From a virus, in the IMG/VR virus record IMGVR_UViG_3300035698_019057, positions 1 through 33,079 of that record: a stretch of DNA of 33,079 nt. The stretch is one strand, 5' to 3'. Each line of letters starts with the position of its first letter. Within the stretch, counting starts at the first letter, position 1. Shown here piece after piece: positions 2,536 through 33,079 of the stretch. A program made the position numbers and the translations under genes. The notes below the pieces were generated by a model. That model was not told the DNA's origin and did no database searches. It was given only the letters and a program-made list of their open reading frames with translations.

Positions 2536-2736
2536 ATGCAAGACGATATAATGGACCAATTAGTAAGAAAACAAGTTCTTCTGATCATCAAAAAGGATAA
2601 GACCTATGAGGAAGAAAGAGAACTGGGTATCATAAGAGCTGAAATAAATGATCTTGTAATGAATTCAGTACTAGAAAAGCTAAACGGCCTTAGAAGCGTA
2701 ATTGATTGCAGAAGAAGAACTATGGTAGTTAAATGA
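2536..2736 (+). CDS. Hypothetical 66-aa protein
   Basis: I chose the ATG at 2536 because AGGG at 2523-2526 is then 9 nt away. An in-frame ATG at 2527 would sit directly against that site. The product is a short mostly helical charged protein (DQLVRKQVLLIIKKD, EEERELGIIRAEI, a basic CRRRTMVVK tail). Its stop overlaps the next start in an ATGA junction, so the two are probably coupled. It does not show HicA features despite preceding a HicB-like gene. Function unknown. Confidence 0.65.
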   Translation: MQDDIMDQLVRKQVLLIIKKDKTYEEERELGIIRAEINDLVMNSVLEKLNGLRSVIDCRRRTMVVK

Positions 2737-3014
2737 GAACAACTAAGAAAAAGAAACTATACACCTATCCTGTTCTAATCATGAACGTCGAAAAAGGCTA
2801 TTTTGGGTTTTTCCCAGATCTAGGGAAGTGCGATCACTTCTATTGTAGATGGTTAAAGAACGCAGTAATTACAGCAAATAATATCCTAAGCTTATCTTTA
2901 TCAATAAAGCTCGCTACTAAAAAGAGACTGCCAGTCCCAATAAACATAAACACCCACCTGAAAGACAAGCGATTCAAGAAATGCTTCATAATGAACGTAA
3001 CCGTTAAGTTATAA
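2733..3014 (+). CDS. HicB-like antitoxin-fold protein without HicA partner (tentative)
   Basis: The product is 93 aa, starting at the ATGA overlap. Residues about 10-75 resemble the HicB fold: YPVLI, then GYFGFFPDLGKCDHF in place of the usual GY-FPDLPGC, a helix containing LKNAVITANNILSLSL, and LPVPI. The N-terminus is very basic (RTTKKKK) and the C-terminus lacks the usual HTH or RHH DNA-binding domain. HicB normally neutralises the HicA mRNA nuclease. No HicA-like dsRBD protein is next to it. It converges with and overlaps the stop of the minus-strand HTH gene by 6 nt. The family call rests on pattern only. Confidence 0.5.
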   Translation: MRTTKKKKLYTYPVLIMNVEKGYFGFFPDLGKCDHFYCRWLKNAVITANNILSLSLSIKLATKKRLPVPININTHLKDKRFKKCFIMNVTVKL

Positions 3015-3359
3015 CTCCTCTTTATTCCTATTAGCATAAGAAAACAATTCTTCAACCTCAAACCCCTTATCGTTAAAGAAGTTAGCCATACGTTCTAGTA
3101 CTATATTAGTAGGGCAGTTAGTTCCCTCCAAATACTTCTTAATGGATTCTTTCTTAATAAATGTACATCTTTCCATTTCAGAGATAGTAAAGTTTCTATC
3201 AACGATCACTTCTTTTATCTTAGAACAGATTGCTTGAACATCTTTTCCTTTATACCTTAACTGCTTGGGTCTATCTACTCTCATAAGGGGCGCAATATTC
3301 TTGATACTTTTTGATTTCTGACTTAAGAACTTTTCAATAAAATCTGTCATAGACAACAT
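3009..3359 (-). CDS. Small helix-turn-helix protein, possible repressor
   Basis: The product is 116 aa. Residues about 40-105 look like an XRE/Cro-type helix-turn-helix: ICSKIKEVIVDRNFTISEMER, then KKESIKKYLEGTNCPTNIVL and ERMANFF (the later helices of the motif). The ATG at 3359 overlaps the end of the replication-initiator gene by 13 nt, with AAGGAG about 12 nt upstream, so the two are co-transcribed. A role as repressor or replication-control protein is inferred from the fold and the company. The operator-like dyads at 5806-5821 and 5852-5875 are possible targets. DNA-binding specificity cannot be read from the sequence. Confidence 0.65.
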   Translation of the reverse strand: MLSMTDFIEKFLSQKSKSIKNIAPLMRVDRPKQLRYKGKDVQAICSKIKEVIVDRNFTISEMERCTFIKKESIKKYLEGTNCPTNIVLERMANFFNDKGFEVEELFSYANRNKEEL

Positions 3360-4534
3360 GATTGACGTGAACTCCTTCTGTCACTAAGACCTTTGGGTTG
3401 TGTCCACCTATTTTCTTTAACGAGCCTTATGCAACATCGAAGACTGCCCTCAATTGTAAAAATTTTTTCATTCTTCCTAGAAGCATAATTATCGCTCATA
3501 GACCCCTCCATAACCGTCCAATATATTTCATTTTTAGTCTCGTCAGTAAGCTCGGTCTTACTGTCCCTAAGCATTTTATCGATAATTCCTATCGCTGTTT
3601 TTCTATCCGTCAAACTTGAATAATGGCCAGAACGTCCCGTATCGTCATAACGGGCTTCGTGATCATGCCAATCTTTGTGCGGAGGAGGACGAATAGGGGA
3701 ACGAGGAGAGGGAGGCTTTGGATTGATCTTTTTTTGATCAACTATTTTCTTCCCGATCTCGATCATGTCTTTTTCTGCCCCCAGACTCCCTATTTTAGAT
3801 AGGATATCGTTTATCTTCCCAATGTCAGTAAGACCGCCTGGTATGTCTAGAAGCTCATTAAGCCTAGCAAGCTTCTCGTCAATCGATAGATCACTGTGCA
3901 AAATATGGTCAGAATTGTTCAAATTTTGATCAGTTTTCTCGAATCTTTCTTTTATTAGGGTATCAGGCTTTGCCGGTTCTTCAATCGAAAACAACAAATC
4001 TTCCCCCTTCTTGGTTTCTTTTTCTATGTAACTTTCCTTGTTCATACTACGAGTATAGCTACTAGTTATATTATAACTAATATTCCTACTTATGCCCGGC
4101 AAATTCTTTTTCTTGCCGGGGGGTGGTCTGGAAACCATTGCTACGAGCAGAGCTTCAGACCTACTTATACGACCGTATGTTTTTGGTAAATCTGGGACAT
4201 AATCTTTTAAGGTGTCATCCACCATAAAATAACGAAGATAATTTTGAGTTCCCAGATAAAACACCTTCTTTTCAATATACCCATTTTTAACCAAAGCAGC
4301 AGTATACGAACGAATAGTTCTTTCACATCTCCCAAGCTCTAAAGAGATATTACGTAGGGTTCTAAGTGGGTTTTCAAATATATATTTAATAAATTGATAA
4401 GCAAATAGTCGACATCCAGGCTTTAACCTATTGTCATTCAATGCTTTTGTTTGAAGCCTGTTCATTAAAGGTCTTGAAGGTTCCCTTTTTTCTCTGCTCG
4501 TTCTTGTTTGGGCGTAATCAGTAGCTGTTTTCAT
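3347..4534 (-). CDS. Putative plasmid/phage replication initiator with winged-helix domain
   Basis: The product is 395 aa. Residues about 25-110 form a helix-turn-helix or winged helix (FAYQFIKYIFENPLRTLR, ISLELGRCERTIRSYTAAL, VKNGYIEKKVFYLGTQNYL), as in phage O-like and plasmid Rep N-terminal domains. A low-complexity proline/arginine linker (about 275-300) precedes a C-terminal domain of about 90 aa. There is no helicase Walker motif, so it would have to recruit host replication proteins. The ATG at 4534 has only a weak upstream AGAG. A leader peptide with an excellent ribosome-binding site lies 55 nt upstream. That, and the antisense promoter in the leader, support the initiator call. A transcription regulator is the alternative. 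Confidence 0.6.
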   Translation of the reverse strand: MKTATDYAQTRTSREKREPSRPLMNRLQTKALNDNRLKPGCRLFAYQFIKYIFENPLRTLRNISLELGRCERTIRSYTAALVKNGYIEKKVFYLGTQNYLRYFMVDDTLKDYVPDLPKTYGRISRSEALLVAMVSRPPPGKKKNLPGISRNISYNITSSYTRSMNKESYIEKETKKGEDLLFSIEEPAKPDTLIKERFEKTDQNLNNSDHILHSDLSIDEKLARLNELLDIPGGLTDIGKINDILSKIGSLGAEKDMIEIGKKIVDQKKINPKPPSPRSPIRPPPHKDWHDHEARYDDTGRSGHYSSLTDRKTAIGIIDKMLRDSKTELTDETKNEIYWTVMEGSMSDNYASRKNEKIFTIEGSLRCCIRLVKENRWTQPKGLSDRRSSRQSCCL

Positions 4535-4589
4535 AATCTATAATCTCTCGTAAATGATAATAATAAGGTTTCGTAACAGTATTATTGTT

Positions 4590-4619
4590 TTACGGTTGAC
4601 TATTTTTAGATTTTTGCAT
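4590..4619 (-). CDS. Leader peptide upstream of the replication initiator
   Basis: This 9-codon frame (MQKSKNSQP, stop TAA at 4592-4590) has AGGAGGA at 4632-4626, six bases before its ATG. That is the best ribosome-binding site in the region and far better than that of the initiator 55 nt downstream. Its coding DNA also holds the -35 of an opposing promoter, and its ribosome-binding site overlaps that promoter's start. IncFII plasmids place the tap leader peptide the same way, where its translation is needed for RepA synthesis. Confidence 0.55.
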   Translation of the reverse strand: MQKSKNSQP

Positions 4620-4624
4620 ACAAT
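4596..4624 (+). promoter_or_regulatory. Strong sigma70 promoter for the antisense RNA
   Basis: TTGACT (4596-4601), a 17-nt spacer and TACAAT (4619-4624) give a near-consensus promoter on the plus strand, opposite to the initiator gene. Expected start is about 4631, on top of the ribosome-binding site of the leader peptide encoded on the other strand. Confidence 0.75.
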
Positions 4625-4630
4625 GTCCTC

Positions 4631-4750
4631 CTCTCTCTCGTTATCTCGTTTTGGTCTTCAAATTATTATGAGTTATGAAAGAGATTCGGTCGTTATTATG
4701 ATTGATAGCGATTGAGAAAAATACCCACTCTTATCGGTGGGTTTTTTTTA
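4631..4750 (+). ncRNA. Candidate antisense (countertranscribed) RNA controlling the replication initiator
   Basis: A near-consensus promoter ends at 4624 and an intrinsic terminator ends in T8 at 4742-4749, defining an RNA of about 118 nt with no good ribosome-binding site. Its 5' end is complementary to the leader-peptide ribosome-binding site and the rest to the upstream leader of the initiator mRNA. Possible stems besides the terminator are ATCTC/GAGAT and CGTTAT/ATAGCG with an 8-nt loop. This matches the arrangement CopA-CopT-tap-RepA of IncFII plasmids. A P1 c4 or P4 CI type immunity RNA is a related alternative. A 15-codon frame at 4668-4715 ends just before the terminator but lacks a translation signal. 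Confidence 0.6.
4723..4750 (+). terminator. Rho-independent terminator
   Basis: The stem ACCCAC (4723-4728) pairs with GTGGGT (4737-4742) around an 8-nt loop, and a run of eight T bases follows. It has the correct polarity for the plus strand and lies between the promoter at 4596-4624 and the first early gene at 4995. Confidence 0.85.
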
Positions 4751-4994: not shown

Positions 4995-5561
4995 ATGAAA
5001 ATAAGGTTCAAACCAAGAAGCAAAGAAGCTGTAGCAAAATCAACAAGGGCAGCACAAAAGCTAAACAAAGTAGAGGAAGCTAAAGCAGAATCAAAAAAGG
5101 AAGCACAAGAAATAATAAGGGCAGAAGCAGCAAGACAAGCAAAAGAAAAAATAATAGTAGCAGAAGCGACAAATCCAGTCTTCCTATCAGAGCAAGACTT
5201 GGCTGATAGGTGGAACTTAGACAAACATACAATCCGCATTTGGAGATATCATAGAAAGGATTTCCCAGAGCCAATTTTCTTTGGAAGAAGGACAATAAGA
5301 TTCCATCGTTCTGCAATTATTAAATTTGAGAAGCATCTAGCTAAAGAGTCAACAGGTAGAAAAGCATTAAACGAATTATGGTCTGAAGGTCCTATAGAAG
5401 GAAGATGCGCAGAAAGGAAACCGAATAAAACTAAAAGACAGAAGATGGCCGCTTTAAAGAAAGAAGCTCTTAAAAAACCCAGTAAGGATACGGAAAAATC
5501 AAAGAAAGCACTGAAAGATGCCTTTAGGTTGCTAGAGAAGTTTAAATCTAATAAGAGATGA
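4995..5561 (+). CDS. HTH (MerR/AlpA-like) DNA-binding protein with basic coiled-coil N-terminus
   Basis: The product is 188 aa, with AGGGTGA about 8 nt before the ATG. Residues 5-55 form a K/A/E-rich helix, likely a coiled coil or nucleic-acid tether. Residues about 60-115 form an excisionase/AlpA-type winged helix (LSEQDLADRWNLDKHTIRIW, FPEPIFFGRRTIRF, SAIIKFEKHL). The C-terminal 70 residues are lysine-rich. This fold is used by phage regulators and excisionases. As the first gene after the extended -10 promoter it is probably an early regulator. There is no integrase for it to assist. Its last codon overlaps the next gene in an ATGA junction. Confidence 0.7.
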   Translation: MKIRFKPRSKEAVAKSTRAAQKLNKVEEAKAESKKEAQEIIRAEAARQAKEKIIVAEATNPVFLSEQDLADRWNLDKHTIRIWRYHRKDFPEPIFFGRRTIRFHRSAIIKFEKHLAKESTGRKALNELWSEGPIEGRCAERKPNKTKRQKMAALKKEALKKPSKDTEKSKKALKDAFRLLEKFKSNKR

Positions 5562-5805: not shown

Positions 5806-5821
5806 ACATGTTGACACATGT
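5806..5821. promoter_or_regulatory. Operator-like dyad overlapping the -35 box
   Basis: ACATGT-TGAC-ACATGT is a perfectly repeated half-site whose second spacer and arm include the TTGACA box at 5811-5816. A protein bound here would block polymerase. A second imperfect dyad (TGGTAAAC / GTTTAACCA around AGTGT, 5852-5875) lies just after the start point. Likely ligands are the HTH proteins encoded at 3009-3359 or 4995-5561. Confidence 0.5.
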
Positions 5822-5839
5822 TATGCCATATAATATAAT
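5811..5839 (+). promoter_or_regulatory. Consensus sigma70 promoter
   Basis: TTGACA (5811-5816), exactly 17 nt, then TATAAT (5834-5839): both boxes are perfect. The start is expected near 5846, about 60 nt before the ATG at 5906. It is the strongest promoter I see in the window and must be regulated, as the overlapping dyads suggest. Confidence 0.85.
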
Positions 5840-5905: not shown

Positions 5906-6061
5906 ATGGAAGCTCTAAATAAGGAAATAAAAGGAACGACCGAATTATGCCGGGATTCTGTTGAAGCAATCGTAAAAGGGAAGTATTCTTTTTTCAAGGC
6001 CCAATCATTTAGAAGCTTTGAAGATAGAAGAGATATTGAATCCAATATCAGTTACAAATAG
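5906..6061 (+). CDS. Hypothetical 51-aa early protein
   Basis: The ATG at 5906 is preceded by AGAGGA at good spacing and lies directly behind the consensus promoter, so it is probably strongly expressed. An upstream in-frame GTG at 5861 would fall in the operator region and is rejected as the start. The protein is small, charged and probably helical (MEALNKEIKGTTELCRDSVE, then a SFFKAQSFRSFEDRRD basic/aromatic patch). Function unknown. Confidence 0.65.
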   Translation: MEALNKEIKGTTELCRDSVEAIVKGKYSFFKAQSFRSFEDRRDIESNISYK

Positions 6062-6558: not shown

Positions 6559-6864
6559 ATGAAAAAAGAACTTAAAAGGATAAATCCAAAACTATCTAAT
6601 GATGAGCGAATAACAGGCAATAAATCGAACATTCATGGAGACGCATCTAAACTCCGTGGGGATGTCTCTAATATCTCTGGCAGTGTCAATGGAATATACG
6701 GGGATATTTCTAAACTCCACGGTGATGTTTCTGGAATCATGGGAACTGTCTCTGGAGTCGCTGGGGAAATTTCTAACATCATTGGGGATTTCGATGAATG
6801 TGAGATCTCTGATGAAGATAGCGAGAAAGGTATCGATATTAATGACTTACTAATGGAGGAATAG
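6559..6864 (+). CDS. Heptapeptide-repeat (beta-solenoid-like) protein, 101 aa
   Basis: Residues 25-80 are eight uninterrupted 7-residue units of pattern (I/L/V)xG(D/S/T/E)(V/I/A)Sx: IHGDASK, LRGDVSN, ISGSVNG, IYGDISK, LHGDVSG, IMGTVSG, VAGEISN and IIGDFDE. The tail CEISDEDSEKGIDINDLLME is conserved in other GDVSxL-repeat proteins that I recall from bacterial and phage sequence sets. The periodicity suggests a small solenoid with a hydrophobic residue each turn, not a coiled coil. Function unknown. GAGG precedes the ATG and the gene sits directly before csrA. Confidence 0.75.
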   Translation: MKKELKRINPKLSNDERITGNKSNIHGDASKLRGDVSNISGSVNGIYGDISKLHGDVSGIMGTVSGVAGEISNIIGDFDECEISDEDSEKGIDINDLLMEE

Positions 6865-6867: not shown

Positions 6868-7137
6868 ATGTTAGTTTTAACTAGAAGAATTGGGGAAAAG
6901 ATAATAATTGGAGACGATATCGTTATTACGGTATTGAGCAATACAGATAATAATAAAACTTATGGATCAGGAACTGTGAGGCTTGGAATAAAAGCACCAA
7001 AGGATTTACCTGTTCATAGAGAGGAAATCTATATCAAGATCAACTCAAAAAAGCCAGTTGATTCAGATAACGACCAATTAGAATATGAAACAACAGTTAC
7101 GCAAGAAGGGTATCAACAAGACAATTATAACAAATAA
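6868..7137 (+). CDS. csrA: CsrA/RsmA-family RNA-binding translational regulator
   Basis: The product is 89 aa and begins with the CsrA signature [20 protein letters not shown]. It contains [20 protein letters not shown] (residues about 39-58), which retains the RNA-contacting N-terminal TRR and the HREEIY element. The loop between strands 2 and 3 is about seven residues longer than in E. coli CsrA ([12 protein letters not shown]). A 28-residue Asn/Gln/Asp-rich tail follows the core. CsrA dimers bind GGA motifs in mRNA leaders and block or promote translation. In Legionella and relatives CsrA controls the growth-phase switch, so a phage copy could retune the host or viral messages. The gene's own leader has three GGA triplets (6855-6866). 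Confidence 0.92.
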
Positions 7138-9423: not shown

Positions 9424-9563
9424 ATGCCATTAAAACCAGGAAGAACTAAGACGGTAATCTCAAAAAACATAGAGAAATGGTTAAGTCTGGAAGATCTAAA
9501 GATCAAGCAGTAGCCGCAGCGCTTAACAAAGCAAACTTAAAAAAAAAACGAAAGGTTAAATAA
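9424..9563 (+). pseudogene. Small basic phage protein, interrupted by a one-base frameshift
   Basis: A strong AAGGAGGA site precedes the ATG at 9424. The zero frame reads MPLKPGRTKTVISKNIEK and stops at 9511-9513 after 29 aa. The -1 frame continues as EMVKSGRSKDQAVAAALNKA plus a lysine-rich tail to TAA at 9561-9563. Together they match a widespread small phage family of form MPLKxGxSxKxIxxNIxEMxxxGxxxxQAVAAAL, about 46 aa. One base, probably an A near 9470-9477, appears to be missing. A correctly phased A AAA AAC heptamer at 9462-9468 could alternatively allow -1 frameshifting. The rest of 9356-9657 shows no other convincing gene. Confidence 0.7.
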
Positions 9564-10272: not shown

Positions 10273-10332
10273 CAAATCCTAGATAACTAAAACCTGTATA
10301 AATGGTAGCTGATCTATTCTCAAAACCCCTTA

Positions 10333-10360
10333 TTGAATTATTTTCTCAATTGAATACAAT
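10333..10360 (+). promoter_or_regulatory. Putative promoter of the recombinase gene
   Basis: TTGAAT (10333-10338), 16 nt, TACAAT (10355-10360). The start near 10367 falls in GTTTCGAGAA, the inverse of the left arm of the hix-like site, which would allow autoregulation as at Salmonella hixL. An 8-bp inverted repeat CCCCTTAT / ATAAGGGG (10326-10333 and 10380-10387) brackets the promoter. Confidence 0.5.
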
Positions 10361-10394
10361 CCGTACGAGTTTCGAGAACATAAGGGGGGTAATT

Positions 10395-10949
10395 ATGTTG
10401 ATAGGATACGCACGAGTTTCTACTAAAGATCAAAATCTAGAATTGCAACGTGAAGCTTTAATTAAAGTTGGTTGTGAAAAAATATTTGAAGATACGATAA
10501 GTGGTTCAAAAAAAGACCGGCCTGGATTGAATAATGCACTAGAGATGACAAGGAAAGGAGATACTCTAGTTGTTTGGAAGCTAGATCGTTTAGGAAGGAG
10601 CGTTAAACAATTAGTTGATTTAGTAGGTGAGCTTAGTAAACGAGGGGTTCAATTCAATAGCCTTACTGATTCTATCAATACTGCTACCCCGTCTGGAAGA
10701 TTCTTTTTTCATTTAATGGCTAGCCTAGCAGAAATGGAGAGAGAACTAATCATAGAAAGAACACGTGCTGGATTAGCGGTAGCTAGAAAGAATGGTATAA
10801 AATGTGGCAGAAAACCTAAAATGACAGCTTGTAAAATTGAGTCAGCTAAAAAGTTACTTCTTAGTGATACACCACCAAGAGATGTAGCAGCAAACTTAGG
10901 GGTTTCTATTCCAACTCTATATAGATGGATACCAGCATCATCACTTTAG
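10395..10949 (+). CDS. Serine recombinase, DNA invertase (Pin/Hin/Gin) type
   Basis: The product is 184 aa from the ATG at 10395, which follows GGGGGG; the open frame extends to 10302, but that part lacks homology. The catalytic domain starts MLIGYARVSTKDQNLELQRE, with Ser9 as nucleophile and Arg7. VVWKLDRLGRS supplies further catalytic arginines. The invertase-type long helix reads FFFHLMASLAEMERELIIER. A Hin-like C-terminal HTH (DVAANLGVSIPTLYRW) binds the site. Length equals that of Pin. It catalyses inversion or resolution between short crossover sites and is too small for a phage integrase. A 26-bp hix-like dyad lies just upstream. Confidence 0.93.
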   Translation: MLIGYARVSTKDQNLELQREALIKVGCEKIFEDTISGSKKDRPGLNNALEMTRKGDTLVVWKLDRLGRSVKQLVDLVGELSKRGVQFNSLTDSINTATPSGRFFFHLMASLAEMERELIIERTRAGLAVARKNGIKCGRKPKMTACKIESAKKLLLSDTPPRDVAANLGVSIPTLYRWIPASSL

Positions 10950-10980: not shown

Positions 10981-11664
10981 TTAGAGATGGTAATCATTTA
11001 GCTTACGTTGTAACGACACCTTCTCCTCTCCCATATAGTCACGAAATCCTATTACTAGGTACCTAAGAGCATCGTTCGCGTGCGACGCAAAGTTATGCTC
11101 TGGTTCTTTATTGAAGATCTTTTTCTCGTTATCCCATTTACGGGTGTAAGACCTTATAGCATTGACTCCTATCTTACATTCAACAGAGTCGATATAGAAT
11201 GATGGCAACATTGTAATGACGGTCTCTATACCGCTTATCAGGCCTATATTGGGGCATATCCTAAACCTTAACCCAAAACTTAAAGCAAGTTCAAATCTAG
11301 TTTTACCACTACCCCATTCATGAACCTTAATATCGTGGGGACCTATATGAACACCGGGTCTTACGCCATTCTTAACACACCATTGAAATACGTAGTTAGT
11401 ATAATGATTGAGACCAACCCTAGTATCTTCATAATAATGAACTAGGTTAAATCTCCCATCCTTTAGATACTGAAAGAACCATATCGCAGTCGCGTCCCCA
11501 TAACCTATATCCCAGGCCGTATGTACGGGGAGGCTCTTATCTACAGTTAATGGTATTACTTGATCGTTCCTCTGCATTACTTCTAATATTGCCCCGTAGT
11601 AAGAACCAACGTTAGATGAGGTGAAAGAGCAATAAAACTCCTGCTGTATAAGCTCTTCAGGCAT
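10981..11664 (-). CDS. terL: Terminase large subunit, C-terminal nuclease part (second half of a split terL)
   Basis: The product is 227 aa from an ATG at 11664, but the homologous frame begins about 11 codons earlier (SEEIERSRKDH before MPEELIQQEFYCSF), so this ATG is probably internal to the original gene. Residues about 48-60 (TAWDIGYGDATAIWFF) hold the first metal-binding aspartate of the RNaseH-like nuclease. HANDALRYL near residue 198 holds the last. The domain cleaves concatemeric DNA during packaging. No Shine-Dalgarno sequence precedes the ATG. The end is complete and converges on the recombinase gene. It is one frame (-1) away from the ATPase part upstream. Confidence 0.85.
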   Translation of the reverse strand: MPEELIQQEFYCSFTSSNVGSYYGAILEVMQRNDQVIPLTVDKSLPVHTAWDIGYGDATAIWFFQYLKDGRFNLVHYYEDTRVGLNHYTNYVFQWCVKNGVRPGVHIGPHDIKVHEWGSGKTRFELALSFGLRFRICPNIGLISGIETVITMLPSFYIDSVECKIGVNAIRSYTRKWDNEKKIFNKEPEHNFASHANDALRYLVIGFRDYMGEEKVSLQRKLNDYHL

Positions 11665-11684
11665 ATGGTCTTTTCTGGACCTTT

Positions 11685-12293
11685 CTATCTCTTCCGACTA
11701 ATTGCTTTGGTCTGATCAACAGTTAGAATCTCAGAGAACCAATCTTCATTATTTAATGAATTCTGATAAAGATCGTAGAAGTGATTCTCACCTCGTGGCG
11801 TACCCTGAAATAAGCACCAGCCGCCATTCTCCATCAGAATCGGTCTCATAAAATCCCAAGACAGGGGATTGGTTAATGAAAACTCACTAAAGATAATTCC
11901 AATTGGGTTAAACCCCATCAAAGCGTTGTAATTGTCTGATCCCAATAAATGAAAGACAGAGCCGTTAATAAGCTCTACCTTCATCTCGGTATTGTTAATT
12001 GATTTAATTAGATGAGGAGGGAAGTGATCTAAGAATTTAAAACCAGACTTGTCCATTCCATTCCATATGATTCTTCTTGCTTGCTTAAGTTCAGGGAACA
12101 AATAAACGTACAGTCCTACTCGCTCTAACATCTTATAGATAATGATGTTAATACAGACTTTATCTTTACCGGCTCGGCGGTGCCAGACTATAACTCCAAA
12201 CCTCTTTTTATCAGTTAGAAAGGATTTTAATAAAGGCTTTTGATATTCTCGTGGAGTAAATAAATAGGGAAGATGGTATTCAAGTAGTGCCAT
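11685..12293 (-). CDS. terL: Terminase large subunit, N-terminal ATPase part (first half of a split terL)
   Basis: The product is 202 aa from the ATG at 12293. Walker A is VWHRRAGKDK (about residues 35-44) and Walker B plus catalytic acid is GIIFSEFSL (about 131-139). A coupling-type FQGTPRGENH lies near 170. This is the translocation motor of the packaging machine and needs the nuclease part to make a full TerL. The frame ends at TAG 11685-11687 after AISRKR. In the -1 frame the same bases read SEEIERSRKDH and lead straight into the nuclease half. One missing base, real or from sequencing, is the simplest explanation. Confidence 0.87.
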   Translation of the reverse strand: MALLEYHLPYLFTPREYQKPLLKSFLTDKKRFGVIVWHRRAGKDKVCINIIIYKMLERVGLYVYLFPELKQARRIIWNGMDKSGFKFLDHFPPHLIKSINNTEMKVELINGSVFHLLGSDNYNALMGFNPIGIIFSEFSLTNPLSWDFMRPILMENGGWCLFQGTPRGENHFYDLYQNSLNNEDWFSEILTVDQTKAISRKR

Positions 12294-13673: not shown

Positions 13674-16600
13674 TTAGATTTCCCATCCTTCTTCATAAAG
13701 AATTAGCCAGAGATTAGCATGTGACGCACTTGCCCTATAACGAGACTGCTGGCCTGTAGTAGTGAAAATATTTAACTCTGAGGCTGTTGATGCATCTAAA
13801 CTTTGACCAATTGCTAACATTGAATTAGTTGCATCGGGGACTAAATCTGCACTATTTAATGATGTTACTCGAGCATAAGATCTTCCTGCAGGAGTGCCAC
13901 CAGTAAAGCCAAATGAAGCGCTCATTTTTAGCTTTACACTCATACCAGGAGGGACACGATTATTAATAGTAACGGCCGTAGTCCCAGTACTATTCTGCCA
14001 AACCGAATTATAACCAGTAGTCCATAATATGTATCTCATACCTGACGCAAAAACATGACAGGTAAATGGCAAGATATTAGCTGATCCATCTGTGAAAACA
14101 GAAGTACCAGAATACGCATATTTTGTATATCCAGTTGCGTCAGCTAGAAGGTTTGTTGCCGTTAGAGAGGTATCATATCCAGCATCAACTGTTCCATCAG
14201 TCTTTCCTATAATAAAGAAGTGGTACCAAGTACTATTAGCTATTGTAAGCCCTGAAGGAAATCCACCCTCATTGGTCCCTTCAGCCCAATCAACATCTAT
14301 TTTCTTAATCAGGTTAGAAGTAGACTTGATATACGAACCAGTATTGTCATAAGCTAACCCTGGTTCTATCTCAATATCATGAGAAGTATCACTTGACTCA
14401 TTGCTTGTTCCTAAGCCAAACCTTGCATTAAGTATGACGCATTCATTAACAGCACCAACTATCGTTTTGTTAGTGGTATCAAATGAAGTATTACTAGAAT
14501 CACCAAGCTTTATAGCCGTCCCAACATCACCATCCTTTAAACCTGCTGTGATTGTTGCCTCACCAGTTAGGGTCGTCGCACCATTTAACGTTTTATTGCC
14601 ATAGATGGTCTGCGCTTGATCATCAATATGGCCATTTGTTATTCCGGTATTTGCCAATTGGATTGTGGCTAATGAGTTATGTGCTAAATCATCAATTGTC
14701 TCTAATGCATTTTGAACGTTCGTATCTGTTCCACTCAAAATACCACCGAAATTAGTCGTAACAGTTGAAACAAGTGAAGCTAGATTTGTAGCACCAGACC
14801 CTGTTGTTCTAGTATTGAGCGTATCTTTTTCAATTTCCAGCTCGACAATATAACCACCAGCAGCGTTGTTTTGGATAATGGCATAACCTAATTGAGCCAT
14901 TTCTAATCCAAACAAAGTAGATGTTGCCTCTGCTACACCAGCATTAATTGCTGTTCTCGCACCAGCCAAGTTATTATATTCTGCTGTGTGCATAACTGAA
15001 AAATAAGTGGGTGTAGCTGCATTCAGATTGTCTTTTGAAACATAAATCCTTTTAACACTATACTTATCAGGACCTGTACTTATAGCAGTTGGAGTACCAG
15101 CACTATTAAAAACCATTGATAACTGAGTTTGGTTTGCTTGTCGTTTCCAATCACCGCTACCATCCGTATACATTTCTATAATTGAAACACCTGCTCCAGA
15201 CGAATCGGGTATTTCTGTATCCACCCCATGATCATCTAACTCAGCTGCTCCAACTATTTGTATTTCTCTATCTCCTGCCGCGGCGCCTGTTCCTGTCGCA
15301 ACACGAGTTATATTGGCGCCACTTTCATGTATAACAGTCCCAATAATCTCATGGGCATAATGGTTTACGGCCATAGGAAAGTTGTATGGATGGTCTTCTC
15401 TAACAGTTATATAGTTCGTACCGTCATACAAACATTCAAATAGAACAATGTTATCAGCAAATAATGCATATGTTCTTGTTGTGGTCTTTTGAATGGCTCC
15501 CGCAGAATCAATATAAATGAAATTCAATGTATTAGCGGCTAATGCTCCGGTTTGTTGAGCCCCTACCCATGTAATCTTTTTGTCATGAATGTACCCATTA
15601 CCAGCACGCAACAGTTCAAAGTTACTACCAGTTATCTGCCAATAAGCTCCTGCACCACCCCATGCTTGGAAACCAGAACGATCAGCATTTGTACAAGGTT
15701 CAAGTAAGACATTAAGCGTTGACATAAGACTTCCATCACCACCTAGATTGGTTGAAATGGTCGTGTCAGATGCTCCACCGAGAAGAACAGCTGCTGTCAC
15801 GTTAGCGTCTTTAAATCCTCCTGTAGCAGTAATCGGCTCATCAAAACTCTTTGCATGCGTAATTGTTTGGATGGTATTCGTTGTGACATAGTTAGCCTCT
15901 ACAGCCCCTAGGTCTGTATCAAGTTCATTCACAGCTCCGCAGATATCTTTCTTTGTAGTTGAGAAAGACGTATCAGTCGCACTACCCAAGTTAACGGCTA
16001 CTGTCACGTTGGCATCCTTTAAACCACCCGTGATAGTCGTTGCTTCAGTAAAGCTTTTTGCCTTTGTTATACCTTGTATAGTATTGGTCGTTACGTAGTT
16101 TGCTTCTACAGCCCCTAGGTCTGTATCAAGTTCATTCACAGCTCCGCAAATGTCCTTTTTAGTTGTTGTAAAAGACGTATCTACTGCGCTTCCCAAGGTT
16201 ATAGCTGTTGTAACATTCGTATCCTTAAAGCCACCAGCTCTTGCGTTATAGTCATCACCGTCTGTAATTGGTCTTACATCGGTACTAGACCTTTCAATAT
16301 AGATTCTACCTAAAGTTTCGTTAATACCACCCAATATGTCCTTCTTGGTTGTATCTAATGATGTGTCTACAGCGCTACCTAGAGTAACAGCTGTCGTTAC
16401 ATTATCGTCTTTAAATCCACCTGATCTTGCATTGTAGTTGTCCCCATCATTTATGGGTTTTACATCTGTACCAACCCTTTCGATTGGTGAGGTTGTTGCA
16501 AGCAGTTCCCATGCATAATCATCAAAGATGTACATAGAATGAACATCTTCCACATAACACAAAGTAACATAGCTAATTACAGTCTCATCCCATGTCGCTC

Positions 16601-17240
16601 CATTCCATTCGTAGATATAATTAATGGTCCAACCGTTCCCTGAGGCTGACGCAATATATCTGTCGCCAACACCAGGACCTACAGGCAACGCGACGCTAGG
16701 GTCAAAAAACGAGAGTACTGCTTCCTCAGAATCAATTAATTCAGGAAGAATAGAGACGTCAATAAGCCCTGTTAGTGGATCTATCCTAAATTCAGGCATC
16801 GTCTGTCTTAAAAGCCTACCGCCACTAGCAACTAATAGAACATTGTTATCGTCGCCAGTTGCTGTTGAGGTAGATGAATAGTTATATAGAGAGGAGTCCG
16901 CTGGGGTTAATTTAACTGCTACAGCATACCCAGTCACATGATTAGTAAAATCATACGCCTTAGCCGCTGTAACGTTTGCGAAGATTTTTAATCCACTACC
17001 ATCTTCCTCTATAGCAATAGATGTAGTGATTGGATCAATACCAGTAACTCTCAAAATAGCCTTGTCATCACTCGCTACAATGGAGAGAACATCATTATCT
17101 TGTATCGTCCAATCGCTAAAATAACCACTTCCCATTACTGTTGATAATGTATCGGTGGACGTATTGTACGAAAACCAAGTACTTACATTCGGATTAACTG
17201 AATAACTCAATGTATCGAAATAATCTTGATTGAATGCCAT
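13674..17240 (-). CDS. Long tail fibre / receptor-binding protein (1188 aa)
   Basis: AGGAG precedes the ATG. Residues 1-75 (MAFNQDYFDTLSYSVNPNVS and onward) share a domain with the capsid-adjacent 396-aa protein. Residues about 250-500 contain related modules of about 70 aa with GGFKDxNVTTAxxLGSAxDT and TTKKDICGAVNELDTD; another copy occurs near 895-940. Residues about 937-1188 share their fold with the end of the neighbouring 503-aa fibre (NARFGLGTSN, KKIDVDWAEGTNEGGFPSGL, ending GWEI). The shaft modules and shared C-terminal domain indicate a fibre that contacts the host surface. No enzymatic motif is seen. Confidence 0.8.
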   Translation of the reverse strand: MAFNQDYFDTLSYSVNPNVSTWFSYNTSTDTLSTVMGSGYFSDWTIQDNDVLSIVASDDKAILRVTGIDPITTSIAIEEDGSGLKIFANVTAAKAYDFTNHVTGYAVAVKLTPADSSLYNYSSTSTATGDDNNVLLVASGGRLLRQTMPEFRIDPLTGLIDVSILPELIDSEEAVLSFFDPSVALPVGPGVGDRYIASASGNGWTINYIYEWNGATWDETVISYVTLCYVEDVHSMYIFDDYAWELLATTSPIERVGTDVKPINDGDNYNARSGGFKDDNVTTAVTLGSAVDTSLDTTKKDILGGINETLGRIYIERSSTDVRPITDGDDYNARAGGFKDTNVTTAITLGSAVDTSFTTTKKDICGAVNELDTDLGAVEANYVTTNTIQGITKAKSFTEATTITGGLKDANVTVAVNLGSATDTSFSTTKKDICGAVNELDTDLGAVEANYVTTNTIQTITHAKSFDEPITATGGFKDANVTAAVLLGGASDTTISTNLGGDGSLMSTLNVLLEPCTNADRSGFQAWGGAGAYWQITGSNFELLRAGNGYIHDKKITWVGAQQTGALAANTLNFIYIDSAGAIQKTTTRTYALFADNIVLFECLYDGTNYITVREDHPYNFPMAVNHYAHEIIGTVIHESGANITRVATGTGAAAGDREIQIVGAAELDDHGVDTEIPDSSGAGVSIIEMYTDGSGDWKRQANQTQLSMVFNSAGTPTAISTGPDKYSVKRIYVSKDNLNAATPTYFSVMHTAEYNNLAGARTAINAGVAEATSTLFGLEMAQLGYAIIQNNAAGGYIVELEIEKDTLNTRTTGSGATNLASLVSTVTTNFGGILSGTDTNVQNALETIDDLAHNSLATIQLANTGITNGHIDDQAQTIYGNKTLNGATTLTGEATITAGLKDGDVGTAIKLGDSSNTSFDTTNKTIVGAVNECVILNARFGLGTSNESSDTSHDIEIEPGLAYDNTGSYIKSTSNLIKKIDVDWAEGTNEGGFPSGLTIANSTWYHFFIIGKTDGTVDAGYDTSLTATNLLADATGYTKYAYSGTSVFTDGSANILPFTCHVFASGMRYILWTTGYNSVWQNSTGTTAVTINNRVPPGMSVKLKMSASFGFTGGTPAGRSYARVTSLNSADLVPDATNSMLAIGQSLDASTASELNIFTTTGQQSRYRASASHANLWLILYEEGWEI
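14235..14296 (-). repeat. 62-bp identical block shared by the two fibre genes, copy 1
   Basis: This block encodes part of the conserved KKIDVDWAEGTNEGGFPSGL segment and the following residues. It is identical, base for base, to 17837-17898 in the 503-aa fibre gene, while flanking DNA has diverged, which points to recent gene conversion. Confidence 0.9.
15898..16148. repeat. Direct repeat inside the long fibre gene
   Basis: A 44-bp block is identical at 15898-15941 and 16105-16148, within a longer, less exact duplication of the shaft module. The exact identity suggests recent duplication or gene conversion and could allow unit-number change by recombination. Confidence 0.8.
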
Positions 17241-28022: not shown

Positions 28023-29213
28023 TTAGCTCGCAGCTCTCAATGCCTGCCAAGCGACCACTGTTGATGCTCCTGGATCGGCCGACAACAATACAATCACCTG
28101 ATCTGTATTTGGATCTACTTTCTGAACACTTACTGCGTTTGTGCTCTCTTGCACTTGCGCGAAGACAATATCAGTAGATAGAACACCAACTGCAGTAATC
28201 GTGATAGTCGCAGAACCACCACCGTTGTTTTCTTTATCAGCGTATTTCACAAAGTGACTTGGAGCGATTCCAGCTGAAAGCATAGCTAGGTCGATAGTAG
28301 CTGCACCAATTGTGGTTACACCACCGTTAGTACAAGTTATATCACCCGACAGAGCAAATTCATGAGTAGCAGCGTCTCCACCACCAATCAAGAATTTAGT
28401 ATCTGCGCATGAGATCATAGCCGCTTCAACAGCCGCTGCACCGATCGTTACAACACCACCATTGGTACATGTAACGTCTCCCGAAAGAGCAAACTCGTGT
28501 GTTGCTGAATCTGCACCACCAATCAAGAACTTGGTATCAGTACAGGCAATCATAGCCGCATCAACTGCTTTAGCAGCGATAGTCACCACACCACCATTGG
28601 TCATGGTCGCATCCCCTGATAACGCAAATTCATGCGTTGCAGCGTCTGCACCACCAATAAGCACTTTGCCATCGACGCATCCAATCATGGAAGCTTCAAC
28701 TGCAGCAGCCGCAATAGTCACAACTCCGCCATTTGTCATGGTCACATCGCCAGATAATGCGAACTCATGAGTTGCACCATCCGCTCCACCAATTAAGAAC
28801 TTGGTGTCTGCTGTTGCTATCATGGTTGCTTCAACCGCTTTAGCGCCGATTGTTACAACTCCGACATTTGTCATCGTGACATCACCGCTCAAAGCATATT
28901 CGACTGGAGCCGAAGAGGCGTTACCAATCCAAATCTTTGTATTAACAAGTGTGTCTAATGAAGAGTCAGTTGTTTCAGCCGTTGTTACAGGTGTCGCACC
29001 AGACGCTGATGTTACTTTAATAATACCATCACGATCGCTAGCTCTTATCTCCATATGATCGTCAAGATGTAAAATATTGGCGATTGAATTGAAATAAGCA
29101 CTTGCAATAATCGTAGCAAAAGCATCAGTTGAGCTCTTGTAGATATGAGTTAACGGAACATTTTGATTCGTGCTATAGCTATAGCGATCAAAATAATTAA
29201 TACTAAAAGCCAT
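28023..29213 (-). CDS. Capsid-adjacent fibre/decoration protein with five 45-aa repeats
   Basis: The product is 396 aa with an excellent AGGAGG site. Residues 1-70 (MAFSINYFDRYSYSTNQNVP and onward) match the N-terminal domain of the 1188-aa fibre. Residues 86-310 are five 45-aa repeats, each with LIGGADxATHEFALSGDVT and TNGGVVTI; ALSGD recurs at about 107, 152, 197, 242 and 287. This motif is common in phage fibre shafts. Residues 320-396 form a separate C-terminal domain rich in valine and threonine. Lying between capsid and tail-tube genes it may be a head fibre or decoration protein. Confidence 0.72.
   Translation of the reverse strand: MAFSINYFDRYSYSTNQNVPLTHIYKSSTDAFATIIASAYFNSIANILHLDDHMEIRASDRDGIIKVTSASGATPVTTAETTDSSLDTLVNTKIWIGNASSAPVEYALSGDVTMTNVGVVTIGAKAVEATMIATADTKFLIGGADGATHEFALSGDVTMTNGGVVTIAAAAVEASMIGCVDGKVLIGGADAATHEFALSGDATMTNGGVVTIAAKAVDAAMIACTDTKFLIGGADSATHEFALSGDVTCTNGGVVTIGAAAVEAAMISCADTKFLIGGGDAATHEFALSGDITCTNGGVTTIGAATIDLAMLSAGIAPSHFVKYADKENNGGGSATITITAVGVLSTDIVFAQVQESTNAVSVQKVDPNTDQVIVLLSADPGASTVVAWQALRAAS
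28284..28958 (-). repeat. Five tandem 135-bp coding repeats
   Basis: The block encodes the five 45-residue shaft units of the 396-aa protein. The units are similar but not identical at DNA level, with constant unit length, so they are old enough to have diverged but could still vary in number. Confidence 0.85.
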
Positions 29214-32877: not shown

Positions 32878-33079
32878 TTACCCTAGAGTAGTTTGTCTAT
32901 TCTCGTCAGAAGAAGTACCTGCCGAACCCAGTCTAGATCTGATCGAAGAGATTCTTTTTTGTTCGACCTTCTTTCTTTCTTTAGTTAATTCCGCTTCTCG
33001 TTTTGAGATTTCAGCTTGCTGTGTTCTAAGCGCTGAATCGTCAGATGCTTGTGCTCCACCACCCAACATCCCTGTAACA
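32878..33079 (-). CDS. Small glycine-rich virion-cluster protein, C-terminal part (crosses the circular joint)
   Basis: This is the same gene as at 1-159. The window end cuts it. The true start is the ATG at 159, not the internal methionine near 33069. The last 24 residues after the joint are ISSIRSRLGSAGTSSDENRQ followed by TTLG. The stop at 32878 lies 8 nt before the portal start. Confidence 0.8.
   Translation of the reverse strand, partial: VTGMLGGGAQASDDSALRTQQAEISKREAELTKERKKVEQKRISSIRSRLGSAGTSSDENRQTTLG
32953..33079. repeat. Terminal 127-bp direct repeat, right copy (circular overlap)
   Basis: Identical to bases 1-127; see the left copy. Only one copy should be counted in the circular genome. 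Confidence 0.95.

Follow-up and report, generated by a model that had tools for sequence, protein, structure and literature searches.

A predicted antisense RNA and leader peptide upstream of a putative replication initiator gene in a podovirus-type phage genome

The control circuits of plasmid R1 and of the IncL/M plasmids have been summarised previously (PMC5717011; PMC12365149). In the IncFII plasmids R1 and R100, use of the downstream start is proposed to depend on translation of a short leader. Pseudomonas plasmids carry exchangeable antisense/leader control modules before non-homologous Rep genes (PMC5304414). The REx-C element (Pseudomonas RepJ and RepA-PFP; ColE2-like) comprises portable stem-loops, a putative antisense RNA with an internal promoter and a stem-loop terminator, and a leader ORF, repI, that is described as translationally coupled (PMC5304414). 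Phage-plasmids are also known to employ RNA. P4 CI and P1/P7 c4 are small phage RNAs that silence replication or antirepressor genes in phage-plasmids. The c4 immunity RNA of P1/P7 is processed from the transcript that it controls. Likewise, the CI RNA of P4, which silences replication genes, arises by processing of an untranslated leader transcript, within which it acts on termination (PMC4825925). Some mycobacteriophage extrachromosomal prophages have a RepA and others have RNA-based origins (PMC7157519). Eight well-defined groups of phage-plasmids are sipho- or myophages with genomes of 55-111 kb, and phage-plasmids typed as IncFII occur in the P1 and pMT1 groups (PMC11652158). In the part of the literature covered here, no podovirus-type phage was reported to rely on a CopA/tap-like circuit as its primary control. 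We describe a locus that we read, with a probability of about 0.5, as cis-antisense/leader-peptide control of a 395-aa gene, most likely for a replication initiator, in a podovirus-type phage-plasmid.

The window, that is, the whole stretch of DNA analysed, is the complete IMG/VR record IMGVR_UViG_3300035698_019057 (33,079 bases, 38% GC). The 127 bases at either end (1-127 and 32953-33079) form an exact direct terminal repeat, and because of this identity the record is most likely a circular contig closed by assembler overlap. A length of 127 bp is a common assembler k-mer. About 22 kb encode a podovirus-type virion, for which family scans recognised a head-tail adaptor (phrog_332), a tail protein (phrog_376), Phage_capsid_2, GTA_holin_3TM and Glyco_hydro_108. 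The connector relatives that carry names belong to Methylophilales, Pelagibacter and Vibrio podoviruses and are about 30% identical. An earlier note on this DNA had called the genome T7-like. This description suits the virion, with its phrog_332 and phrog_376 proteins and podovirus relatives, but the family scans recognised no T7-type polymerase. The other 10 kb contain a weakly matched Bet/RecT-like protein, a CsrA homologue, pentapeptide and ankyrin proteins, a small serine recombinase, and the antisense/leader region. Family scans of the genome recognised no polymerase, helicase, primase, integrase or ParAB. No integrase was found besides the small resolvase/invertase-type recombinase, which is possibly a multimer resolution enzyme, and no convincing iterons, origin or partition genes (parABS) were recognised in the genome. 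Thus the features of a phage-plasmid that are present are the virion genes and the circular ends; the replicon and the plasmid state of the prophage are putative, and partition genes were not recognised. The features on which the argument rests are the following.

3009..3359, minus strand: 116-aa regulator of the XRE/Cro type, whose gene lies downstream of the 395-aa gene and overlaps it (HTH_19, E 1.8e-4; phrog_3 transcriptional repressor, E 3e-5)
3347..4534, minus strand: 395-aa winged-helix protein (weak profile matches)
4537..4611, minus strand: predicted imperfect hairpin; the leader ORF forms its 5' arm and the start region of the 395-aa gene its 3' arm
4590..4619, minus strand (read 4619-4590): leader ORF of nine codons, MQKSKNSQP, from ATG to TAA
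4596..4624, plus strand: sigma-70-type promoter of the small RNA, TTGACT-17-TACAAT, 10/12; -35 TTGACT at 4596-4601 and -10 TACAAT at 4619-4624
4626..4632, minus strand: Shine-Dalgarno sequence of the leader, AGGAGGA, 6 nt before the leader ATG
4631..4750, plus strand: predicted antisense RNA of about 120 nt with hairpins at 4632-4684, 4686-4715 and 4716-4749
4716..4749, plus strand: intrinsic terminator with eight T (also delimited as 4723-4742 and 4723-4749), whose stem is weaker on the minus strand
4995..5561, plus strand: divergent gene for a 188-aa DNA-binding protein with an excisionase-like HTH (phrog_4745, E 1e-6; phrog_66, E 1.7e-4)
10302..10949, plus strand: small serine recombinase of the resolvase/invertase type (PF00239, E 5e-48; phrog_125, E 4e-79)

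Several other genes of the window deserve mention. The large terminase (minus strand, 10981-12293) is divided between the ORFs 11685-12293 and 10981-11664, which lie in different frames, and about 10 residues are absent at the junction compared with the single 441-aa ORF of a virion relative (L002); it could be a two-part terminase, an assembly error or the sign of a defective virus. The virion genes 28023-29213 and 13674-17240, both on the minus strand, have a similar N-terminus (MAF..xYFD.yS) and their products are probably paralogous tail or decoration proteins; the former gene contains strongly folding, highly repetitive sequence. The phage-borne CsrA homologue (6868-7137, plus strand; PF02599, E 4.5e-21) finds its best plasmid match, at 57%, on a Legionella plasmid; this match, taken with the presence of pentapeptide and ankyrin proteins, hints that the host may be Legionellales-like. 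A 101-aa protein of short repeats of the GDVSGI-G type (6559-6864, plus strand) shows weak similarity to the RiPP precursor TigB. A possible lone HicB-like antitoxin (2733-3014, plus strand) matches at E 0.016, below cut-off, and no recognisable HicA adjoins it.

The plus strand carries a small-RNA gene between the 395-aa gene and its divergent neighbour. The near-consensus promoter that the earlier note had pointed out is present, with its -35 within the leader ORF and its -10 over the leader start codon. It is the second of the 54 promoter-like sites listed for the first 20 kb, with only a 12/12 site at 5811 ahead of it. Across the genome and on both strands, it is the sole promoter of at least 10/12 that is followed by a terminator within 250 nt, and such a promoter-terminator pair arose in 0/3000 dinucleotide shuffles of the 460-bp spacer. 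The RNA 4631-4750 folds with -42.3 kcal/mol (z -6.47), and none of 200 shuffles was as stable. The terminator is not the sole cause of this stability, since the remainder without it keeps a z of -4.3; the second hairpin by itself has a z of -5.9. The complementary strand of 4631-4750 reaches -22.0 kcal/mol (z -3.2), and the plus-strand fold includes 10 G-U pairs, which become mismatches in the complement, versus 1 on the minus strand. The weaker complement and these G-U pairs show that selection acted on the fold of the plus-strand RNA. The RNA had been described as beginning at the leader ribosome-binding site and stopping at an intrinsic terminator. The terminator is found at 4723-4742, but its stem is bidirectional (-9.7 kcal/mol with AUUUUU on the minus strand), and the predicted RNA covers just the first 1-2 bases of the leader Shine-Dalgarno sequence. 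The predicted start at about 4631 lies in a pyrimidine run without a purine, which is unusual as a +1 base.

The bidirectional stem bears on the sense transcript. The promoter scan found no convincing minus-strand promoter; the best candidates lie at 4971-4941 (9/12, with a 19-nt spacer) and at 4844-4815 and 4693-4665 (8/12). Because the stem can act in both directions, it would partly terminate any sense RNA initiated beyond 4742. Hence a weak promoter within the antisense gene would have to drive the sense RNA, unless attenuation forms a second layer of control. Attenuation could even be the whole mechanism, in the style of pT181 or pIP501, with the antisense RNA and the stem affecting elongation on the minus strand, or converging transcripts could simply share a terminator, the leader being incidental in both cases. 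The minus-strand strength of the stem and the candidate sense promoters beyond it speak for such an arrangement, which nevertheless leaves the strong Shine-Dalgarno sequence with its start codon and the leader/start hairpin unexplained; moreover, upstream of the stem the minus-strand RNA shows only modest structure (z about -2). We regard it as improbable.

The leader ORF is probably real. Its nine codons, the AGGAGGA, the gap of 55 nt to the 395-aa ORF (ATG at 4534) and the lack of a good ribosome-binding site on that ORF are all found in the sequence, as the earlier note had reported. The leader is not an N-terminal extension of the 395-aa ORF, since the frames differ and that of the 395-aa ORF already closes two codons before its ATG. 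An AGGAGG followed by an ATG at 3-9 nt occurs at three sites in the genome, namely the leader, a virion gene and a 29-aa ORF, and a comparable pair of strong Shine-Dalgarno sequence and ATG appeared in 37/3000 dinucleotide shuffles of the spacer. The 29-aa ORF, at 9424 on the plus strand in a spacer with the site AAGGAGGA, is, besides the leader, the sole AGGAGG start in the genome that lacks an explanation. CsrA might target the GGA motifs of the leader Shine-Dalgarno sequence. With the RNA gene, its antisense placement and the leader all present, the earlier observation is confirmed.

The leader is predicted to fold onto the start of the gene that follows. When windows of 30 nt were masked along the mRNA, the start region of the 395-aa gene opened only with masks touching the leader or the hairpin 4537..4611, and its mean unpaired probability rose from 0.36 to at best 0.60 on masking the leader. 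Of 400 shuffled versions of leader and spacer, 2.3% closed the start at least as tightly, and 3.3% equalled or exceeded its leader-dependent opening. Leader-dependent opening counts as moderate evidence, because the total fold energy of the leader/start stretch is ordinary (z 0.04). The predictions therefore support, in silico, a leader whose translation would open the downstream start, which would be the CopA principle realised through a different geometry.

Plasmid R100 served as a direct control, and the Rfam CopA model matches it at 6728-6638, on the antisense strand, with 106 bits. In the copA promoter of R100 (TTGAAC-17-TATACT), the -35 falls within tap and the -10 immediately precedes the tap start, which is the placement seen on the phage leader. 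The antisense 5' end lies 18 nt before the leader ATG in R100 CopA and about 12 nt before it in the phage. Folding is asymmetric between the strands in R100 (z -4.4 for CopA versus -2.3 for CopT), and the phage likewise favours the antisense strand. The CopA/CopT/tap topology that the earlier note had proposed thus holds, in that the layout of promoter, leader and antisense RNA agrees with R100 within a few bases. Membership of the IncFII family does not hold. The tap and repA genes of R100 overlap by 8 nt (gap -8), whereas in the phage the leader stop and the next start are separated by +55 nt, with no stop/start overlap. In R100 the repressor gene copB/repA2 lies upstream and in line, whereas the upstream gene of the phage (4995-5561) is divergent and no copB-like gene is found. 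The phage RNA has three hairpins including a separate terminator and does not adopt the CopA fold; the CopA family RF00042 has no gathering match in the window and is absent among the Rfam matches at E<=10. The 395-aa protein is non-homologous to IncFII RepA, with no detectable sequence similarity, and no plasmid relative was found. The phage module is not a member of the IncFII family.

It could be argued that no antisense control exists at all, the plus-strand RNA ending by chance in a shared spacer and the minus-strand leader being a chance ORF. In favour of this argument, the scan yielded no convincing sense promoter, and the pieces were all chosen post hoc; the joint rarity of the pieces in shuffles and their agreement with the R100 geometry make coincidence very improbable.

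By computation, then, the window holds an RNA gene, its antisense placement, a leader ORF and a leader/start hairpin. From these elements we infer a mechanism. The plus-strand RNA, if made, would base-pair with the leader at the 5' end of the minus-strand mRNA, reaching the border of the AGGAGGA, and would inhibit by blocking ribosome entry at the leader ORF. When the leader is translated, the ribosome would melt the leader/start hairpin and render the weak start of the 395-aa gene usable; with the antisense RNA bound, the gene would stay shut. A relay such as the leader would be needed because about 97 nt separate the end of the RNA from the 395-aa start. Since every genome copy would make antisense RNA, synthesis of the initiator would fall with rising copy number, provided that the 395-aa protein initiates replication and the prophage is a plasmid. 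Whether the phage module works like the CopA/tap circuit is, in our judgement, about an even call.

Much depends on the 395-aa protein, which the earlier note had taken for a winged-helix initiator. Its best profile is phrog_270, a replication initiation protein (E 0.001), followed by MarR-type regulators (E 0.008-0.011) and by the replication initiation profile phrog_428 (E 0.06), with a DnaD-like loader profile also in the weak list. HTH_36 matches one domain at E 0.014, below cut-off. Because phrog_270 also matches in 14/14 control genomes, including archaea, its match reports a winged helix and not a family. No Pfam or NCBIfam family scored above cut-off, and no IncFII RepA was recognised. 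The protein has no relatives in viral contigs, GTDB genomes, phages, 72,556 plasmids or the virion relatives, and phmmer found none among the ORFs of 82 loci; against plasmids at E up to 10 there were just two chance-like matches. AlphaFold without an alignment, applied to the whole protein and to its N-terminal domain, gave poor models and no fold match. The winged-helix similarity therefore stands, weakly, and an initiator is plausible, but the protein is an orphan and its best profile is unspecific. Judging from the profile ranking, the length and the absence of another recognised replication gene, we lean slightly towards a replication initiator (or loader).

The same antisense/leader circuit might instead govern a winged-helix transcription regulator that acts in immunity or as a lysis-lysogeny switch, so that the RNA would set a lysogeny decision and not copy number. 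MarR-type and other regulator profiles match the protein nearly as well as those of initiators, the gene overlaps that of the XRE-type repressor and faces a divergent HTH gene (for which no relatives were found in the collections searched), and a phage precedent for a leader ORF with a small RNA exists in IsrK/orf45/anrP of Gifsy-1 (PMC4825925). However, a regulator of this kind would be long at 395 aa, a replication initiator gives the best profile with phrog_428 and a DnaD-like loader in the weak list, and the family scans recognised no other replication gene. A regulator is accordingly the less likely identity, though it is the closest competitor to the initiator that we prefer.

The earlier note had also raised a c4/CI-type immunity RNA. 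More broadly, the small RNA could act in trans, as a phage small RNA or a c4/CI-like immunity RNA, on rightward early transcripts, and its overlap with the leader would then be secondary. The strongest sigma-70 promoter in the genome (12/12; 5811-5839, plus strand) precedes a 51-aa ORF (5906-6061) whose function is not assigned. The early codons of this ORF contain a complement of hairpin 2 of the small RNA, 11 nt perfect (5935-5945) and 16/20 overall, which would fit such a role. Yet chance alone would produce a match of roughly 11 nt when 120 nt are compared with 33 kb, and the duplex score is just about 2 sd below those of other genes, so that the complement counts as no more than a lead. 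Above the Rfam threshold, the small RNA matches no known phage or plasmid RNA family. It is a separate gene on the opposite strand with its own promoter and terminator, unlike CI and c4, which are processed from the transcripts that they control. Both an immunity RNA and action in trans appear improbable next to the cis-antisense circuit.

Among the loci and collections compared, no relative carries the module. A covariance model of the small RNA matches nothing but itself in 1.49 Mb of compared loci; a second weak match, on the minus strand, was rejected as the bidirectional terminator stem. The virion relatives (L002, L003, L092-L097) share structural genes only, and the antisense/leader region is absent from them. 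DNA searches of phages and of plasmids (PLSDB) with the module were empty. A scan for the pattern of promoter and leader picked nine viral contigs, all of which were rejected as starts of longer ORFs without such an RNA. In Rfam, ColE1 RNAI (RF00106; 16.6 bits versus 47 required) and Phe_leader (25.5 bits versus 55 required) were likewise rejected. This absence of relatives is not proof, because near-identical records of this virus may be missing from the collections.

A more far-reaching picture can be drawn, tentatively, since we consider the odds to be against it. A 33-kb podovirus-type phage would persist as a plasmid, and its initiator, unrelated to known Reps, would be under a CopA/tap-like circuit that evolved independently and whose leader ORF itself serves as the 5' arm of the hairpin concealing the initiator start. 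The RNA would also make related phages incompatible and thereby confer immunity to them. If true, an antisense/leader-peptide copy-number switch of the plasmid type has arisen or been captured in a small podovirus without homology to known replicons, phage-plasmids extend beyond the large sipho- and myophage groups (PMC11652158), and this locus is a compact case in which one RNA serves phage immunity, incompatibility and copy control.

Among the described systems, R100 agrees in layout, and REx-C has a comparable set of parts. All REx-C-type elements are present in the phage (antisense RNA, promoter, terminator and leader ORF, with a putative Rep), and they show no similarity to PLSDB plasmids. 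The REx-C leader is described as translationally coupled, whereas the phage leader is separated from the next gene by its gap; here, as proposed for IncFII, the downstream start is predicted to depend on leader translation. The 33-kb podovirus-type genome without recognisable parABS also differs from the established phage-plasmid groups of 55-111 kb sipho- and myophages. The best reading is an analogous system, that is, a variant of known antisense/leader control in a probable phage-plasmid.
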